DNA from: Thermobaculum terrenum ATCC BAA-798
Lineage (GTDB): Bacteria; Chloroflexota; Chloroflexia; Thermobaculales; Thermobaculaceae
Reading direction: 5' to 3'
Assembly: GCF_000025005.1 (NCBI RefSeq)
Contig: NC_013526.1
Location: 744,001-808,000 of the forward strand
DNA: 64,000 bases
In this document: in pieces, positions 7,930 to 53,458 of the stretch
Layout: the number at the start of each line of letters is the position of its first letter
Position numbering within the stretch: the first letter of the stretch is position 1
The notes under the pieces: model-generated
Database searches by the model: none
What the model was told of the DNA's origin: nothing
Seen by the model: the letters and a program-made list of their open reading frames with translations, nothing else
Made by a program: the position numbers and the translations under genes

Positions 7930-8292
7930 CTAAATGCGAAACACCTGCATGGCAGCTCGTAGCTTGTCACGCGACTGCCCGGCATCCAACTGCGCTATGT
8001 GCCCCATCGGCGGACTGGGAACGACACGGTACAGCTGCGTGCGCGCCTGGGGCATCACGGCTACGGCGGCTGCCTTCCTGGCCAGGTCCGCGCTGATGCC
8101 GGCAGCACAGGCATCCCGTGGGTGCTGCCCAGCCCAGACCTGGCCGTCGTGCCCGGCGTCCACCACGGTGTGCGCTGATGAGTGGTCGAGCACGTGCTCC
8201 ACCGTCATCGGCAGGTGCGTGGAGTGCAGGGCCAGCGCCAGCAGTGCGCAGAACAGCAGGCCGAGACCAAGGTGCCTATCCACAGCTCTCAC
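7930..8292 (-). CDS. Small exported His-containing protein, DUF6153-like
   Basis: This 120-residue protein has an N-terminal hydrophobic helix (about residues 8-24) followed by a His-rich segment (THLPMTVEHVLDHSSAH, then GHDGQ and QHPRDACAA), with one or two Cys. The arrangement resembles the DUF6153 family often found beside DUF305 and copper genes in Actinobacteria; that match is by eye only. It starts three bases after the csoR stop and precedes the DUF305 gene, so it belongs to the copper operon. A role in periplasmic or surface copper binding is inference. Confidence 0.65.
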   Translation of the reverse strand: MRAVDRHLGLGLLFCALLALALHSTHLPMTVEHVLDHSSAHTVVDAGHDGQVWAGQHPRDACAAGISADLARKAAAVAVMPQARTQLYRVVPSPPMGHIAQLDAGQSRDKLRAAMQVFRI

Positions 8293-8295
8293 GGC

Positions 8296-8579
8296 TCAAG
8301 CCCTCACGGTCTTGCGCAGGACGCGGATCATCTCCCTGATCGCGGCCTCCCTGCCCTCGCCCTCGACGGCCTCCGCCACGCACTTGCGCAGGTGGTCCTC
8401 GAGCACGATCAGCGCCACCTCCTGGGCGGCAGCGTTCATGGCGCTTATCTGCTGGACGACATCGAGGCAGTAGCGATCTTCCTCGATCATCCTCCGGTGC
8501 CCCGCACCTGCCCCTCTATGCGGTTGAGCCTCCTGACGAGCTCTTCCCTATGGTCGGCATAACTGGATGTTCTCTCCAT
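8296..8579 (-). pseudogene. csoR: csoR copper-sensing repressor, interrupted by a one-base deletion
   Basis: CsoR/FrmR repressors bind Cu(I) and release the DNA of copper-efflux genes. The natural start is the ATG at 8579: the first 27 codons encode the conserved helix (YADHREELVRRLNRIEGQVRG). The frame then breaks near 8497-8505 and hits a stop; adding one base restores MIEEDRYC onward to the stop at 8296. In the restored numbering Cys38, His63 and Cys67 reproduce the Cys-x24-His-x3-Cys copper site of CsoR. An internal ATG at 8490 could give only a 64-residue fragment lacking the first helix. It is divergent from copZ-copB. The break may be a real mutation or a sequencing error; without it this is an ordinary CsoR. 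Confidence 0.8.
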
Positions 8580-8665
8580 ACCTTATAGTTTTACCCCATA
8601 ACTTGACTCGTGTGCTAGTATTATACAGCATACTGGTAATGAGTATATTGTGAGGAGGCGTCAAG

Positions 8666-8914
8666 ATGACAAGCAAGCACACCGAAGTCCTGATCGTACC
8701 CGACATGTCCTGCAGCCACTGCGTGAGCAGGGTGGATAGGGCGCTGAGGAGCCTAGAGGGCGTCGAAGGCGTCTCGGTGGACCTGGACTCGAAGCGGGTC
8801 ACCGTCCAGTTCGATCCCTCCGTCACCTCCCTGGAGAAGATAGAGGCCGAGTTGGAGGCCATAGGTTACCCTAGTGCCGGGAGAGGAGTTACGGATGGCT
8901 CACCACGCACATGA
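8666..8914 (+). CDS. copZ: CopZ-like copper chaperone (heavy-metal-associated domain)
   Basis: This 82-residue cytosolic metallochaperone has a ferredoxin-like HMA fold. The metal motif is MSCSHC with Cys16 and Cys19, in the usual first loop, followed by a standard HMA pattern (VSRVDRALRSLEGVEGVSVDLDSKRVTVQF and an EAIGY end). It would carry Cu(I) to the P-type ATPase encoded next; the genes overlap by about 20 bases. The start ATG follows GTGAGGAGG. It is divergent from csoR and the shared 86-base intergenic region probably holds the copper-responsive operator. Confidence 0.95.
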   Translation: MTSKHTEVLIVPDMSCSHCVSRVDRALRSLEGVEGVSVDLDSKRVTVQFDPSVTSLEKIEAELEAIGYPSAGRGVTDGSPRT

Positions 8915-10979
8915 CACACACCAAGCATCTGGACACACCCATCATGAGATGAGGCACGAGGGGCACCCACATGGAGGTGCGGAGCACGGGCGCGGCACGC
9001 ACGATGCGCACGCAGGCCACTCGGAGGCCGCCTTTGCCCGGGTCTTCTGGGTATCGCTGATCCTCACGATCCCCGTGCTGCTCTACTCCGACCTTCTGCA
9101 GCACATCCTGGGATACTCCGCACCCACGTTTACGGGATCTAGCTGGCTGGCGCCCGTCCTGTCCAGCGTCATCTACTGGTACTGCGGCTGGGTCTTCCTG
9201 AGGGGAGCGGTCTCGGAGGTCGGTCAGGGGCGTCCAGGCATGATGACGCTGGTGGCGCTCGCCATAACCACCGCCTACTTCTACAGCCTCGCGGTCACCT
9301 TTGGGATCCTGCGCGGGATGCCCTTCTATTTCGAGCTCGCCACCCTCGTCACGATCATGCTCCTTGGCCACTGGATGGAGATGAGGGCCATAGGCAGGGC
9401 GCAGAGCGCGCTGGAGGAGCTGGCGAAGCTGCTGCCCGATACGGCCGAGCGTCTGGTGGGCGAGGAGACCGAGGAGGTGCCCGTAGCGGAGCTGCGCGTG
9501 GGGGACCTGGTCCTGGTGCGCCCGGGGGCCCGCGTGCCGGCCGACGGCCAAGTCGAGGGCGGCCGCAGCTCCCTCGACGAGAGCATGATCACCGGCGAGT
9601 CCAGGCCGGTGCACAAGGAGGAGGGAGATGAGGTGGTCGCCGGCACGGTCAACGTGGGCGACGGAGCCCTGCGGGTGAGGGTCACCCGCGTGGGCGAGGA
9701 TACGGTCCTCTCCGGGATCATGAGGCTGGTGCGCGAGGCACAGGCGAGCAAGGGCAGGGCGCAGGTGCTCGCCGACAGGGCTGCCTACTGGCTGACGATC
9801 GTCGCGGTGGCGGTGGCCGTTATCACGTTCGCGATCTGGCTGTCGGTCAGGGGGTTGGACAACTACACCATCGAGAGGGTGGTCTCAACATTGGTCATCG
9901 CGTGCCCCCATGCGCTGGGGCTGGCCATCCCCCTGGTGGTGGCGATATCCACCACGATGGCGGCCCGCAGCGGCATCCTGGTCCGGGACAGGGCTGCGCT
10001 CGAGCGGGCCAGGAACGTGGACGTGGTCGTGTTCGACAAGACCGGGACCCTGACCCTGGGACGTCAGGGACTGGTCGACATGACCACGGTGCAGGGCTTC
10101 GATGCGGAGGCGGCGCTCTCGCTGGCGGCATCCGTCGAGCAGGAGAGCGAGCACGCCGTGGCGAGGGCCCTGGTGGCCGCGGCCAGAGACAGGGGGCTGC
10201 CCCTGCAGCGCGCGGAGGACTTTCGTGCCCTCCCGGGCAGGGGCGTCAGCGCCAGGGTGGATGGTCGCCAGGTACAGGTGGGAGGCCCAGGGCTGCTCGA
10301 GCAGGCGGGGATCGCCCTGCCTGAGGAGTTATCGGCCAAGGCCAAGGAGTGGGGTGGGCACGGGCAGACCGTGGTCTACCTGGTGGTGGACGACGAGCCC
10401 GTGGCAGCCTTCTCACTGGCCGACGTCGTGCGCCCCGAGAGCTTCGAGGCCGTGAAGACCCTCACCGGGATGGGGGTAAAGGTCTCCATGCTGACTGGGG
10501 ACTCCGAGGCGGTGGCCCGGTGGGTAGCCTCCCAGCTGGGGATAGCGGAGTACTTCGCAGGGGTGCTGCCCGAGCACAAGCACGAGAAGATCCTCGAGCT
10601 GCGATCGCAGGGGCTGGTGGTCGCCATGGTGGGCGATGGGGTCAACGACGCCCCCGCGCTGGCGCAGGCCGACGTGGGTATAGCGATAGGTGCGGGCACG
10701 GACGTGGCCCGCGCCTCGGCGGCGATCGTGCTGGTGCGGGACGACCCCCGGGACGTGGCCAGGGTCATAACGCTGAGCCGAGCCAGCTACAGGAAGATGG
10801 TGCAGAACCTGGCCTGGGCCGCGGGGTACAACCTGGTAGCCCTGCCGCTGGCCGCGGGCGTGCTGGCTCCCTGGGGACTGGTGCTCCCCCCGGCGTTGGG
10901 AGCCCTGCTGATGTCGCTCAGCACCATAGCCGTAGCGCTCAACGCGCAGCTCCTGCGCAGGCAGGTCCCCAGCAGATAG
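8895..10979 (+). CDS. copB: CopB-type (P1B-3) copper-exporting P-type ATPase
   Basis: This protein of 694 residues pumps copper, and probably silver, out across the membrane. The N-terminus is His-rich (about residues 1-45) in place of Cys-type HMA domains, and the membrane metal motif is CPH (Cys337), both hallmarks of the P1B-3/CopB group. The TGES actuator loop, DKTGT phosphorylation site (Asp381), TGDS and GDGVNDAP motifs are all intact. The usual SEHP motif reads SEHA. I prefer the ATG at 8895, which has GGAGAGG at good spacing, over a GTG at 8874. It forms an operon with copZ. Two hairpins follow the stop codon. Confidence 0.95.
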   Translation: MAHHAHDTHQASGHTHHEMRHEGHPHGGAEHGRGTHDAHAGHSEAAFARVFWVSLILTIPVLLYSDLLQHILGYSAPTFTGSSWLAPVLSSVIYWYCGWVFLRGAVSEVGQGRPGMMTLVALAITTAYFYSLAVTFGILRGMPFYFELATLVTIMLLGHWMEMRAIGRAQSALEELAKLLPDTAERLVGEETEEVPVAELRVGDLVLVRPGARVPADGQVEGGRSSLDESMITGESRPVHKEEGDEVVAGTVNVGDGALRVRVTRVGEDTVLSGIMRLVREAQASKGRAQVLADRAAYWLTIVAVAVAVITFAIWLSVRGLDNYTIERVVSTLVIACPHALGLAIPLVVAISTTMAARSGILVRDRAALERARNVDVVVFDKTGTLTLGRQGLVDMTTVQGFDAEAALSLAASVEQESEHAVARALVAAARDRGLPLQRAEDFRALPGRGVSARVDGRQVQVGGPGLLEQAGIALPEELSAKAKEWGGHGQTVVYLVVDDEPVAAFSLADVVRPESFEAVKTLTGMGVKVSMLTGDSEAVARWVASQLGIAEYFAGVLPEHKHEKILELRSQGLVVAMVGDGVNDAPALAQADVGIAIGAGTDVARASAAIVLVRDDPRDVARVITLSRASYRKMVQNLAWAAGYNLVALPLAAGVLAPWGLVLPPALGALLMSLSTIAVALNAQLLRRQVPSR

Positions 10980-11823: not shown

Positions 11824-11852
11824 TTGCCCAGGACGAGGCTTGCCCTTATAAT
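11824..11852 (+). promoter_or_regulatory. Promoter of the Erm-like gene
   Basis: TTGCCC (11824-11829), a 17-base spacer and a perfect TATAAT (11847-11852). The predicted transcript begins near 11859, so translation must start downstream of that point. Confidence 0.65.
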
Positions 11853-11908
11853 GGGGAGGTCTTGTAGCTGGCAATTCAGTAACGCACTTTGCAGGGAGGT
11901 AAGGGACT

Positions 11909-12846
11909 ATGGCAGGGGTAATCCGCTGGGTAACCAGGGCCCGTACCAGGGCCGCGGGCGCGGGGAGCAGCAACGGTCTCAAGCTCACAGCTTTCTGTCC
12001 CAAAACTTCCTGCGAAGTCGCCAGCTCGTCGACTACCTGCTCCAAAGCTCCGATATAGGTCCTGAAGACATCGTCTACGAGATCGGACCAGGTCGCGGGA
12101 TCATCACCGAGCGATTGGCCCGTCGCTGCCGGGAGGTGGTGGCGATCGAGAAAGACCCCTCTCTGGTGGCGCGGCTGCGGACCGAGCTCGCCGACCTGCC
12201 GAACGTGCTCGTCCTGGAGGGGGATTTCCTGGAGCACGATCTGCCCAGGAGCCGTTACAAGGTGTTCTCCAACCCACCCTTCAGCATCACGGCGCAGATC
12301 GTGCAGAAGCTCACCGGCGCGCCACGCCCGCCGGAGGATACATATTTAATTGTGCAGCAGGAGGCTGCTTGGAGGTACCTGGGCACTCCCCGTGAGACGC
12401 TCTCCTCGGTGCTGCTGAAGGCGGACTTTGTGCCCTCGATCACCTATCGCTTCCGGCGCGAGGACTTCCATCCGCACCCCGGCGTCGAGGTGGTCATGCT
12501 GCGGTTGCTCCGCAGGGAGGCGGATCCCTTGCCGTCTGGGATGCGGCAGGTGTATCGGGATTTCGTCACCTACGGTTTCACGGCGTGGCGGCCGTCCCTC
12601 AAGGAGACGCTCGGCCCGCTCTTTGCCAGGAGCGGAGTCGACCGCCTGTGGAAGAGGTTGGACCTTCGGCCCGATGCGACCCCGACGTCCCTGGCTTTCG
12701 AGCAGTGGCTGGGGCTGTTCTACTCCTACCTGCTGCTGGAGTATCCTCGAGGCAAGCACCTCTTCTCGGGAGCCGAGGACAGGCTGCGCGCCCAACAGGC
12801 GCACCTGGATAAGCCCCGCCGGACCCGTATCCGGCGGGATCAATAA
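11909..12846 (+). CDS. Erm-like 23S rRNA (adenine-N6) dimethyltransferase, frame break near the start
   Basis: The enzyme would methylate A2058 of 23S rRNA and so confer macrolide-lincosamide-streptogramin B resistance. It has a basic Arg/Gly/Gln-rich N-terminal tail, the QNFL motif, SAM motif I (VYEIGPGRGIIT), DFLEHDLP, and catalytic motif IV as SNPPF. NPPF/NIPF forms mark the actinobacterial Erm group rather than KsgA (NLPY). The main frame, open from before 11851, has no ATG, GTG or TTG after the predicted transcription start. The only ATG with a ribosome-binding site (GGGAGGT, ATG at 11909) is one base out of frame; a missing G in ATGGC would restore MGRGNPLGNQ. The C-terminus is complete. 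The frame break may be a sequencing error, a real lesion or a control device. Confidence 0.85.
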
Positions 12847-19833: not shown

Positions 19834-22191
19834 CTAATCTCCTTGAAAATGGTAGTGGGGATGATTATGTTGGTGATCCGGCAGGTGCCGATGGGGATGC
19901 ACATGAGGCACACCTGGAGGGGGCAGCTCCTCCGGTGGATGGAAGTGGTCGGCATCCACGTGCCTGGGGTGATCGTGCTCCAGCCAGCGCTCCACCTGTC
20001 CATCTCTGGCCACTAGCAGGCTCTCACCATGATGCCATCTAGCTCTGAACAAGTCGTAGTTGTGCTTGCTCTTGGTCTGACGTTCCTCTGGCAGTAGGCT
20101 GTACCATTCCCGATGGGGGTGTAGGATGATGCGCCGCTCAACCTCCGGCACCACTACGACGCGCAGCCCCGCAGCCTTGAAGAAGAAGCTGTAGTACACG
20201 TCCGCCAGGCGGTAGAACCTGAACTTCTCGTTGTCCAGCAGCCCCACCTCCTCCAGTAGCGCACGCCTGAAGGCGAACAGATACCCCTCCATAGCGTCCG
20301 CATCCGGTCCAGGAGTCCGCTCGAACTCCCGGAGGTCCTCCGTCACCAGGCCAAACGGCCCAGCCACCCCGACCGACCTATCGGCCAGGGCCTCCTCAAG
20401 CGGGGTCCACACATCGCCCGCGAGCTCCACGGAGGTATCCAGCCAGACTACGTACCACCCCTCCGAGGCGCGCATCGTGGCGTTGCGGGAGGCGGCGAAC
20501 CCGATGTTGTGGTCCGCAAAGAGCACCTTGAGGGGTACCCTGACGCCCTCCTCCTCCCAGTAGCCTCGGTGGTACAGCTCGAGCATCAGCCCCAGGGTGT
20601 CATCGGTGGAGCCGCTGTCGACCACTACGACCTCCAAGCTCCTGCCGTGCAGGTGGCGCGCCAGGCTGCGCAGGCACCTCTCCAGGTCCTCCCTGTTGTT
20701 GCGGGCTATGAGGTTCACCGACCACTCGTAGCGGTCGGGCTCGCCCACGCGGCTGGGCACCTCGGCCGAGCTGGTGAACACGTGCGGCAGGCGGTTGATC
20801 CTGAGCCTGTAGGCGCGAGTGCCCTGCCGGGTGTCGCGCAGCTCGACCCCGCGCGCCTCCAGGTCGGAGCGCAGCGCGTCTGCCAGGGCGTAGTCTCCCC
20901 TTGCCCTGACCTCCGCACGCAGAGCCAGCAGCTCGCGCACGTCCTGCCGAGGCTCCAGGAGCAACCCAGAATCGGGCTCAGCGAACACGTCGAGCCCGAG
21001 CACCTCGTCGAACTCCGCCAGCAGCGCCGCCCTCTCCGCAGGTCCCAGGCCGGAGCGGCGCACCACGTCCCATACCACGGCCATGGCAGCCGGGAGGTTC
21101 AGGTCGTCCCTCAGCGAGCGGTCGAAGGCCTCGCGCCAGGGCCGCATGGCCTCCTCATCGGGAGGAGCAACGGCCTCATCCCTGGCTGCCAGGGCGGCCA
21201 TCCTGAGCCTGCGCAGGGAGGTCTGCGCGCCCGCCAGCGCCCGGAAGGTGAAGTTCAGGCGGGTCCTGTAGTGCGCCGTGGTGAAGAGGTAGCGCAGCGC
21301 CAGGGGCTCGAAGCCCCGGGCCACGATGTCGTCCAGGGTGTAGTCGTTGCTCATGGACTTGGACATCTTCAGGCCGTCGGTCAGCAGGTGCTGGGTGTGC
21401 ACCCAGTGCCTCACCCACCTGTGGCCGACGTACGCCTCGCTCTGCGCCCGCTCGTTCTCGTGATGGGGGAAGATGTTGTCTACCCCACCGGTGTGGATGT
21501 CGATCTCGGTACCGAGGTACTTGATCGCCATGGCGGTGCACTCGATATGCCACCCGGGGAACCCCCTGCCCCAGGGGCTGTCCCAGGCCATCAACCTGCC
21601 GGGCTCCGCCTCCTTCCAGAGCGCGAAGTCCAGTGGGCTCCTCTTGTCGGCGGTCGCATCCTCCTGGGAGGAGGTGAGCTCCGGCAGGCTGTTGCCCGAG
21701 AGCTGCCCGTACTGCGGCAGGCGCGCCACGTCGAAGTAGACGTTGCCGCCCGCCCGGTAGGCGTATCCCTGCCGCTCCAGCTCGCGCACGATCTCGATCA
21801 TCTCTCCCACGTGCTGCGTGGCCCGCGGGAAGACCGAAGCCGGCAGGATGTTCATCCTCGCCTCGTCGCGCATGAAGGCGCGGGTGTAGAACTCCGCGAT
21901 CTCCCCCGGGGTGCGCCCCACCCTCCTGGCCTCGGCCTCGAGCTTATCCTCCCCCTGGTCCAGCAGCTCCTGTCGCATGTGCCCTACGTCGGTGATGTTC
22001 TTCACGTGGATCACCTCGTAGCCCTCCCGCAGGAGCGCCCGCCTTATCCAGTCCGCGGTACAGAAGGATCGCAGGTTGCCTATGTGGATGTAGCGATAGA
22101 CGGTGGGGCCACAGGTGTACATCCTGATCCTCCCGGGCTCCACCGGCACGACCTCCTCCACACGGCGAGTCAAGGTGTTGTACAGCCTCAT
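19834..22191 (-). CDS. cysS: Cysteinyl-tRNA synthetase fused to a GT2 glycosyltransferase and a His-rich tail
   Basis: One uninterrupted 785-residue frame carries three parts. Residues 1 to about 465 are a full cysteinyl-tRNA synthetase, which charges tRNA-Cys. It has the HIGN motif (36-39), the zinc ligands Cys27, Cys218, His243 and Glu247, KMSKS (275-279), and the C-terminal DALR and anticodon-binding parts ending near RQGTRAYR. Residues from about 487 to 725 are a GT2 glycosyltransferase: SVNLIARNNREDLERCLRSL, VVVVDSGSTDDT, NIGFAASRN, WLDTSVEL as the DxD-like site, and EGYLFAFRRALLEEVG. The last 48 residues contain 14 His (HVHPHRHLPDHQHNHPHYH) and probably bind metal. A normal cysS is about 460-490 residues. 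This is probably the cell's only copy to judge by its intact motifs, but that cannot be seen here. It starts at ATG 22191 with GGAGGAG ahead. Confidence 0.93.
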   Translation of the reverse strand: MRLYNTLTRRVEEVVPVEPGRIRMYTCGPTVYRYIHIGNLRSFCTADWIRRALLREGYEVIHVKNITDVGHMRQELLDQGEDKLEAEARRVGRTPGEIAEFYTRAFMRDEARMNILPASVFPRATQHVGEMIEIVRELERQGYAYRAGGNVYFDVARLPQYGQLSGNSLPELTSSQEDATADKRSPLDFALWKEAEPGRLMAWDSPWGRGFPGWHIECTAMAIKYLGTEIDIHTGGVDNIFPHHENERAQSEAYVGHRWVRHWVHTQHLLTDGLKMSKSMSNDYTLDDIVARGFEPLALRYLFTTAHYRTRLNFTFRALAGAQTSLRRLRMAALAARDEAVAPPDEEAMRPWREAFDRSLRDDLNLPAAMAVVWDVVRRSGLGPAERAALLAEFDEVLGLDVFAEPDSGLLLEPRQDVRELLALRAEVRARGDYALADALRSDLEARGVELRDTRQGTRAYRLRINRLPHVFTSSAEVPSRVGEPDRYEWSVNLIARNNREDLERCLRSLARHLHGRSLEVVVVDSGSTDDTLGLMLELYHRGYWEEEGVRVPLKVLFADHNIGFAASRNATMRASEGWYVVWLDTSVELAGDVWTPLEEALADRSVGVAGPFGLVTEDLREFERTPGPDADAMEGYLFAFRRALLEEVGLLDNEKFRFYRLADVYYSFFFKAAGLRVVVVPEVERRIILHPHREWYSLLPEERQTKSKHNYDLFRARWHHGESLLVARDGQVERWLEHDHPRHVDADHFHPPEELPPPGVPHVHPHRHLPDHQHNHPHYHFQGD

Positions 22192-22319: not shown

Positions 22320-23834
22320 GTGAACTGCATATTCATCACGGTGGACAGCCTGAACCGCCACTTCCTACGGGCGTACGGAGGCAAGGTGGAGATGGAGGTG
22401 CGCACGCCCAACATAGATCGCCTCGCCGCCCGCGCCGCGGTGTTCGAGCGGCACTTCGCCGGCAGCCTCCCCTGCATGCCCGCGAGAAGGGAGTTCTTCG
22501 CCGGCGTGCAGGAGTTCCTGTGGAGGCCCTGGGGACCGATGGAACCCTTCGACGAGCCCCTGGCGCGCGTGGCCAGGCGAGGAGGGGTCGTGCCCCAGCT
22601 GGTGACCGACCACTACCACTACTTCCAGCACGGTAGCCACGGGTACTACGAGGACTACATGGGATACGAGCTGATCCGCGGGCACGAGTACGACACCTGG
22701 CGCACGACGCCCCGCAGGCCCGACCCCAACTTCCTCCGCCAGATACTCGCCGACCAGCCGGAGGACACGGGCTTCCTCAACCGCGCGGCCTACGCCCGCA
22801 ACGTCGCGGGATTCCGCACCGAGGAGGACTTCTTCCCCGCCAAGGTGTTCTCCAGGGCGGCGGAGTGGCTGCGGGAGAACGGCCAGCAGCAACCCTGGCT
22901 GCTGGTGATAGACAGCTTCGACGTGCACGAGCCCTTCCACTGCCCCGAGCCCTACGCCTCGATGTACACCGATGAGGACCCCACGGACCCGGAGCTGATC
23001 CTCTGGCCCAGGTACGGCAGGGTCGATGAGGGGAGCAGTCGGCTCACGGACAGGCAGCTGGCTTTCGTGCGCGCCCAATACGCTGGCAAGCTCACCATGG
23101 TGGACAGGTGGCTGGGCGTGCTGCTAGACGAGATGGACCGGCAGGGGCTGTGGGCGAACACCCTGCTCATCCTCACCACGGACCACGGGCACTTCCTGGG
23201 GGAACATGGGTAGGTCGGCAAGCCCAACGCCCCGATGTACGACGTCCTGGCCCACACCCCGCTGTTCATCTGGCACCCCCATAGCCCCCTCATGGGTGGT
23301 AGGGTGAACGCCCTCACCTCCGCGGTGGACCTGTACGCGACGATGCTGGATGCCCTGGGGCTGGAAGTGCCCGGGAGCACGCACAGCCGCAGCCTGATGC
23401 CGCTGCTCCTGGGAAGCGTCCGGGAGCACAGGGAGTGGGCGATCTACGGCTACTGGGGCTCAACCGTGAACGTGACCGACGGCCGCTACACCTACCTGCA
23501 CCCCTGCAGGGAGGACGTGGAGGCGACCTGCTACTCCACGATGATGATCGAGCCCATAGACTGGTTCGCCCCCCCGAGGCCCAAGCTGCACGCCACGGCC
23601 GGCAGGTTCCTGCCCTACACCGATTCGCCGGTGTGGCGCTACACCGCCAGATCGACGAGCAGGCACGGCTCTCCCCTCCTGTTCGATATCGAAAGCGATC
23701 CGGAGCAGCAGGAGAACCTGGCCGGACAAGGGGCGAGCGAGGAGGCCGCCATGCGCACGCTCCTCATCAACGCCCTGCAGGAGCTCTCGGCGCCCCCCGA
23801 GCAGTACGAGCGGCTGGGCATCTTGCTGCCGTAG
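22320..23834 (+). pseudogene. Sulfatase interrupted by one in-frame amber codon
   Basis: A sulfatase of the alkaline phosphatase superfamily hydrolyses sulfate esters with a formylglycine residue. The frame opens with GTG at 22320 behind GGAGGT. The catalytic Cys52 lies in CMPAR, the CxPxR formylglycine signal, and the metal-binding TTDHGHFLGEHG is near residue 290. Codon 298 is TAG (23211-23213), then the same frame continues without any further break (VGKPNAPMYDVLAHTPLFIWHP) to 23834, for 504 positions in all. Homologues usually have Tyr at the stop position (GEHGYVGKP), so a TAC or TAT to TAG change is enough. A real nonsense mutation, a sequencing error or readthrough are possible. Confidence 0.85.
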
Positions 23835-53083: not shown

Positions 53084-53112
53084 TTGACAACTGTCACATA
53101 CCTCAATATATT
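53084..53112 (+). promoter_or_regulatory. Promoter of the riboswitch-nrdAB unit
   Basis: A consensus TTGACA (53084-53089), 17-base spacer and TATATT (53107-53112). Transcription would start near 53119, exactly where the riboswitch P1 stem begins. Confidence 0.8.
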
Positions 53113-53118
53113 GTAATT

Positions 53119-53289
53119 ACCGTCGGTTCGCTGGTACGGCCAGCGAGGCAAGAGGGAATCCGGTGAGAATCCGGGACTGCCCCGCAGCGGTGAGCGGGAA
53201 CGAAAGCCGCAGTACGGCACTGGGAGGTCCTCCTGGGAAGCCGCGGCGAGTAGGCCATCGGCCCGCAAGTCCGAAGACCTGCCGACGGT
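53119..53289 (+). promoter_or_regulatory. Cobalamin (B12) riboswitch
   Basis: The leader holds the cobalamin aptamer: the conserved GGGAATCCGGTGAGAATCC and GGGACTGCCCCGC segment (53153-53185) and GCAAGTCCGAAGACCTGCC near the 3' end. The P1 stem closes with ACCGTCGG (53119-53126) and CCGACGGT (53282-53289). A small hairpin, CCACGC with GCGTGG (53290-53304), follows as part of the expression platform, leaving about 150 bases to the nrdA start. B12 binding is expected to turn the ribonucleotide reductase genes off. Confidence 0.93.
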
Positions 53290-53458
53290 CCACGCGGTGC
53301 GTGGTTGCGGTGCCGACCTTCGAGGGTGAGGCGGACCGAGGAAAGATGCCATGGTGGAGCAGCATGCCTGGTGCTGTTCTCTCCCGCTGCTCTTGCCTCG
53401 TCCTACCTCTCCAGGCCCCCGGGTCGGCTCTCCCACAAATCTAGCAAGGAGTAAGGAG

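Follow-up and report, generated by a model that had tools for sequence, protein, structure and literature searches.

Cysteinyl-tRNA synthetase–glycosyltransferase fusions of the Chloroflexota and their possible action on tRNA(Cys)

The fusion gene of Thermobaculum terrenum and its surroundings

The window analysed here, a stretch of 64,000 nucleotides from chromosome 2 of Thermobaculum terrenum (positions 744001-808000), carries on its minus strand a reading frame of 785 codons and a stop, uninterrupted by any internal stop codon, in which a cysteinyl-tRNA synthetase (CysRS) is followed by a CysRS-type anticodon-binding mini-domain (CysS_C), a GT2 glycosyltransferase domain and a histidine-rich tail (Table 1). 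Residues 1-461 match the cysS model TIGR00435 with 417 bits against a cut-off of 340, which places this part of the protein among the CysRSs, and PF01406 matches residues 14-322. Mapping on E. coli CysRS located the zinc ligands at C27, C218, H243 and E247, the HIGN motif at 36-39 and KMSKS at 275-279, all intact. The CysS_C domain was recognised by our own HMM (59 bits, match 382-460), and PF00535 matches the GT2 domain at residues 491-628 with 53.3 bits, well above the Pfam gathering cut-off of 23.3. The sequence-only reading, which had described a complete CysRS with these motifs, a complete-looking GT2 domain and a tail with its count of histidines in a single frame, is thus confirmed in nearly all points; the GT2 domain, though well recognised, is not canonical, since the second Asp of its DXD motif is replaced. 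AlphaFold2 models built with two sequences (the window protein and that of locus L037) reached a pLDDT of only 44 and 39 and were unusable.

Table 1. Features of the window, with the basis of each assignment
Feature	Position	Strand	Basis
CysRS-CysS_C-GT2-His tail fusion gene	19834..22191	-	ORF, Pfam/TIGR profiles, 42 further full-length homologues
CysRS catalytic and connective/DALR part, residues ~1-400	20992..22191	-	profiles, motif conservation
CysS_C anticodon-binding mini-domain (CysRS-type, C-terminal), residues ~415-460	20812..20949	-	own HMM; PF23493 on relatives
GT2 domain, residues ~488-735	19987..20730	-	PF00535 491-628 and conservation
His-rich tail, residues ~736-785	19837..19986	-	14 His in last 48 residues; conserved core
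Sulfatase-like gene, divergent to the fusion	22320..23834	+	
P-type metal ATPase-like frame	8874..10979	+	by eye
KsgA/Erm-like rRNA adenine methyltransferase frame	11824..12846	+	by eye
Cobalamin riboswitch	53107..53300	+	120.8 bits

The sulfatase-like gene is broken by an in-frame TAG at 23211-23213, after which 199 amino acids continue from position 23235; it is a pseudogene, a case of readthrough or a sequence error. The P-type metal ATPase-like frame, about 9 kb from the fusion, has a very His-rich N-terminus. Neither a T-box nor another known RNA control element was found near the fusion gene in the window or in nine fusion loci.

Distribution, origin and selection

The homologue survey covered the Chloroflexota, where a query with the GT2 half found a relative in 116 of 400 genomes. 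Retrieved loci, several of them from fragmented and probably metagenome-derived assemblies, yielded 42 further full-length CysRS-GT2 fusions from independent genomes, giving with the window protein a set of 43 from 14 families. The same single frame in 42 other genomes rules out an assembly artefact, the outcome that would have undone the sequence-only reading; the search for GT2 domains downstream of CysRS, which that reading had wished to see extended to all CysRS sequences, has in this way been carried out for one phylum. A scan of genome contigs returned a single relative only, and a tblastn search of plasmids with CysS_C-GT2 gave generic GT2 matches only, with 25-47% identity. The architecture had been regarded as uncharacterised, and indeed no report of a CysRS-GT2 protein was found in literature searches, which lacked most subscription journals.

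A tree calculated from 126 CysRS sequences unites the 43 fusions in one clade (SH-aLRT 99), which lies within the CysRS type that has NITDVGH instead of NxTDxDD; the CysRS halves of the fusions accordingly go back to a single ancestor. Among the Thermogemmatispora-type copies dN/dS is 0.05-0.10 in the CysRS part, 0.07-0.10 in the GT2 part and 0.08-0.18 in the tail, a sign of purifying selection on each of the three. The closest GT2 relatives of the T. terrenum protein are those of Thermogemmatispora (69%), and the gene may have reached T. terrenum by transfer.

The fusion is an additional CysRS. Two more CysRS homologues are encoded by T. terrenum, an ordinary stand-alone CysRS of 468 amino acids, whose gene adjoins an rRNA methyltransferase-like gene, and an MshC-like protein of 409 amino acids, which scores 397 bits on the MshC model (cut-off 485) and 409 bits on cysS; a second cysS, which the sequence-only reading had proposed to look for, is therefore present. 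Most of the 51 genomes with this GT2 carry two or three PF01406 proteins, and a separate CysRS is kept in nearly all fusion genomes; those with one or no PF01406 protein besides fragments (G220, G137, G014, G212, G342) are incomplete assemblies. With other CysRS genes present, the housekeeping role probably belongs to one of them, and the possibility that the fusion is the sole housekeeping CysRS, merely provided with a tail, is ruled out.

The CysS_C-GT2 unit

Stand-alone relatives of the GT2 domain occur in families f16, f24, f25, f27 and f83, and their N-terminal stretch resembles xRxxARxxxDWxxADxLRxxIxxxGWxVxD. An HMM of CysS_C built solely from the C-termini of stand-alone CysRSs matches this N-terminus in every one of the 24 stand-alone GT2s examined, with 28-51 bits, as well as 42 of the 43 fusions, the exception being L077, which has lost the domain. 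The Pfam model PF23493 (CysS_C, cut-off 23) gives 32 bits for the stand-alone protein L091, 22.9 for L178 and 20.7 for L080. When the CysS_C-GT2 protein L091 served as the query, matches were obtained in 117 of 399 Chloroflexota genomes, with alignments that mostly start near residue 8 and extend across the two domains. What varies is the presence of the CysRS core, and the anticodon-binding domain and the glycosyltransferase remain together. Fused and stand-alone copies interleave in a few groups of the GT2 tree, which indicates that over long periods the unit has existed in either state, fused or separate, without the tree deciding which of the two is the older. The CysS_C domain of the stand-alone proteins may be a relic of fission or a protein-binding hairpin.

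The conservation of both halves is high. The four zinc ligands and HxGN are invariant in all 43 fusions, as is KM(S/A)K, whose third place is mostly A and is S in the window protein; positions equal to R427, D436, R439 and D451 of the E. coli anticodon-binding domain are kept in 42-43 of the 43. The GT2 family has the signature DxSxE, RFYRxxD and HxH, seen in the window protein as DTSxE (585-589), RFYRxxD (658-664) and HxHRxW (691-696), within which D585, E589, R658, Y660, R661, D664, H691 and H693 vary little or not at all among the 43 fusions and are mostly kept in 18 stand-alone proteins. The first D of DXD is retained in all 61 sequences compared, and the second is replaced by S, G, A or N (His in L068). 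No member has the metal Asp, so that glycosyl transfer is uncertain; a metal-independent GT-A mechanism is conceivable, in which the basic residues of RFYR would replace the metal.

The histidine-rich tail is a genuine and ancient feature. Its core, GHDH...HxHxHWPDHxHxHPHxH, is present in 24 of the 43 fusions, which make up exactly one subclade (families f1, f8, f17, f24, f36 and f43), and missing from the remaining 19, a distribution explained by one gain or loss. His-rich tails occur in metallochaperones, and by this analogy metal binding is plausible. The idea that the tail stores Zn for the synthetase is possible as such; the 19 fusions without a tail keep all four Zn ligands, so that delivery of Zn to the synthetase does not seem to be a necessity.

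Gene neighbourhood and co-occurrence

Where the two parts are encoded separately they may still lie together. In six genomes of family f27 (L178-L183) the gene for a NITDVGH-type CysRS is located tail-to-tail with a CysS_C-GT2 gene, the ends ranging from an overlap of 49 bp to a distance of 774 bp, with five of the six within 50 bp. In a set of 400 genomes, the NITDVGH motif is found together with the GT2 domain 94 times, against 22 and 36 times for one of them alone (odds ratio 29, uncorrected for kinship).

A recurrent neighbour is a gene for an S51 peptidase, found at most 2 kb from the fusion in 12 loci (families f8, f17, f37, f43 and f49), mostly directly downstream and with the GxSxG serine intact. 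In L068 (G318; 8237-10039, minus strand) S51, CysS_C and GT2 are joined in one chain of 601 amino acids, the S51 part of which has no GxSxG. T. terrenum and G068 have no S51 gene, hence it is not obligatory. The stand-alone GT2 gene of family f24 adjoins a mannose-1-phosphate guanylyltransferase-like (GDP-mannose-pyrophosphorylase-like) gene, a hint from this one family that GDP-mannose might be the donor. No neighbouring tRNA(Cys) gene was found in 46 loci. A link between translation and cell-envelope synthesis, as had been suggested from the sequence, finds no support here: the conserved partners are the S51 peptidase and the CysRS-type anticodon-binding domain, and envelope genes do not recur beside the fusion in the loci examined. 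In a single genome (G009) a QueA-type queuosine synthesis gene lies directly upstream of the fusion (L060, 10557-11657, minus strand).

Proposed activity and its alternatives

The reading that we favour, with a probability of about 0.4, is that the GT2 domain, tethered to tRNA(Cys) and in most cases part of the same chain as a dedicated CysRS, attaches a sugar to tRNA(Cys) or Cys-tRNA. The CysRS half, judged by its complete catalytic, zinc and tRNA-binding signatures, would bind tRNA(Cys) and charge it with Cys, and the CysS_C domain would grip the anticodon arm. The GT2 domain could then move a sugar from a nucleotide-sugar donor to the tRNA, either to a nucleoside near the anticodon or to the Cys carried by the tRNA. 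A GT2 encoded by a separate gene retains its own CysS_C and would still be able to dock on tRNA(Cys); the S51 GxSxG serine hydrolase often encoded next door might, at a guess, trim or recycle the product. Slightly more tentative is the wider proposal that CysS_C-GT2 proteins constitute a new bacterial family of tRNA(Cys)-directed glycosyltransferases, and that tRNA(Cys) or Cys-tRNA(Cys) of the Chloroflexota bears an undescribed sugar. The case for such an activity is built on what was observed, namely the architecture and conservation of the proteins, the single origin of the fusion, the co-location of the genes and the constant CysS_C-GT2 unit, from which tRNA(Cys) as substrate, sugar transfer and the role of S51 are inferred. 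Counting against it are the missing DXD metal Asp, the loss of CysS_C in L077, the lack of a tRNA(Cys) gene near the loci, and the chance that CysS_C of the stand-alone GT2s is a relic or a hairpin that binds protein; nor, to our knowledge, has bacterial tRNA glycosylation by such an enzyme been reported.

Should the GT2 domain act on tRNA(Cys), the family would comprise tRNA glycosyltransferases of bacteria that are coupled to a synthetase; the sugars on tRNA that we found described are those of queuosine in animals. Such an activity would also show how a synthetase can share its anticodon-binding domain with another enzyme, and would explain the two or three CysRS homologues in so many Chloroflexota. 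Even with a different chemistry, this would still be a widespread and old family maintained by selection.

The strongest competitor, itself unlikely, is a GT2 without catalytic activity that senses nucleotide sugars, acts as a scaffold or mediates dimerisation in an otherwise ordinary second CysRS used under particular conditions. The absence of the DXD metal Asp from all members and the presence of another CysRS in the genomes agree with it, and duplicated synthetases are commonly such condition-specific isozymes (PMC9437257); it fits poorly with the near invariance of the eight GT2 residues in fused and, largely, in stand-alone proteins, with the low dN/dS of this domain (about 0.07-0.1), with its presence without a synthetase in several families, and with the GDP-mannose-pyrophosphorylase-like neighbour in f24. 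More doubtful is a route resembling that of mycothiol, in which the CysRS half would activate Cys and couple it to an amino sugar that GT2 makes or attaches, yielding a cysteinyl-sugar thiol on which S51 would act as amidase or peptidase. Here the CysRS paralogue MshC, which joins Cys to GlcN-Ins, is a precedent (PMC2922099, PMC9437257), an S51 amide hydrolase is often encoded nearby, and in f16 the stand-alone GT2 is found 6-20 kb from an MshC-like gene. However, the fusion scores just 217 bits on the MshC model TIGR03447 (cut-off 485) and retains an anticodon-binding domain, which is absent from MshC-type enzymes; the same genomes have a separate MshC-like CysRS homologue of about 400 amino acids, and work independent of tRNA would leave CysS_C on the stand-alone GT2s unexplained.

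Two further explanations have little in their favour. Peptide-nucleotide inhibitors can be destroyed by certain transferases and peptidases, and one could imagine a resistance or immunity system in which an inhibitor-insensitive extra CysRS is combined with GT2 and S51 enzymes inactivating an inhibitor directed at CysRS, extra synthetases being well known as resistance enzymes (PMC9437257). The occurrence of one clade across 14 families with low dN/dS, the retention of CysS_C-GT2 without an extra synthetase and the lack of any recurring biosynthetic or mobile context make this very improbable. Least probable, and already disfavoured, is a chance fusion of an ordinary CysRS duplicate with an unrelated GT2 as a bystander, the two having no joint function. 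Synthetase gene fusions are common, and the possible transfer into T. terrenum might be read in the same sense; the single old origin of the fusion and its maintenance in 43 sampled genomes speak against it, as do the tail-to-tail split genes of f27, the constant CysS_C-GT2 unit and the S51-CysS_C-GT2 chain.

Comparison with known systems

Fused synthetases have been described, among them LysX, a LysRS joined to MprF, and ErdS, an AspRS joined to DUF2156 (PMC9437257). In both a full synthetase and a transferase form one chain that is extra to the housekeeping copy (PMC9437257), as is also found here; their transferase moves the amino acid off the tRNA, whereas CysRS is combined here with a sugar transferase of GT2 fold. 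Another synthetase paralogue, Glu-Q-RS (YadB), modifies a tRNA anticodon nucleoside (PMC9437257), to which the activity proposed for the fusion would be analogous; unlike the fusion it derives from GluRS and has no GT2 domain. Together, LysX, ErdS and Glu-Q-RS make a tRNA-modifying design tied to a synthetase credible. A further parallel is the CysRS* of Desulfobacterales, a second CysRS set apart for charging SelC*; it has no anticodon-binding domain (PMC9437257), which the fusion keeps. MshC, the mycothiol cysteine:GlcN-Ins ligase, resembles the fusion as a CysRS-derived enzyme tied to sugar chemistry and differs from it in its length of about 410 amino acids, without anticodon-binding domain or glycosyltransferase, the fusion remaining far below the MshC cut-off. 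The animal RNA glycosyltransferases QTGAL and QTMAN act on the queuosine of the anticodon (PMC12518689). Like the proposed activity theirs is that of a glycosyltransferase on a tRNA anticodon nucleoside, a likeness that would be one of functional analogy only; their substrate is the queuosine of tRNA(Tyr) or tRNA(Asp). Queuosine is not expected in tRNA(Cys), and we know of no synthetase fusion of QTGAL or QTMAN.

Other CysRS homologues

The survey also brought to light a clade of Chloroflexota CysRS homologues of about 400 amino acids, short at the C-terminus, which comprises L002 from the T. terrenum genome itself (C1:1310478-1311374) together with some 24 relatives; two members compared with the MshC model resemble MshC, with 397 and 374 bits, below the cut-off of 485, and are named cysS by the models. 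Among plasmid records, large replicons of Paraburkholderia, Burkholderia and Vibrio coralliilyticus carry CysRS homologues with 40-45% identity, possibly extra CysRSs of secondary metabolism; one of them adjoins a phosphopantetheinyl transferase gene.
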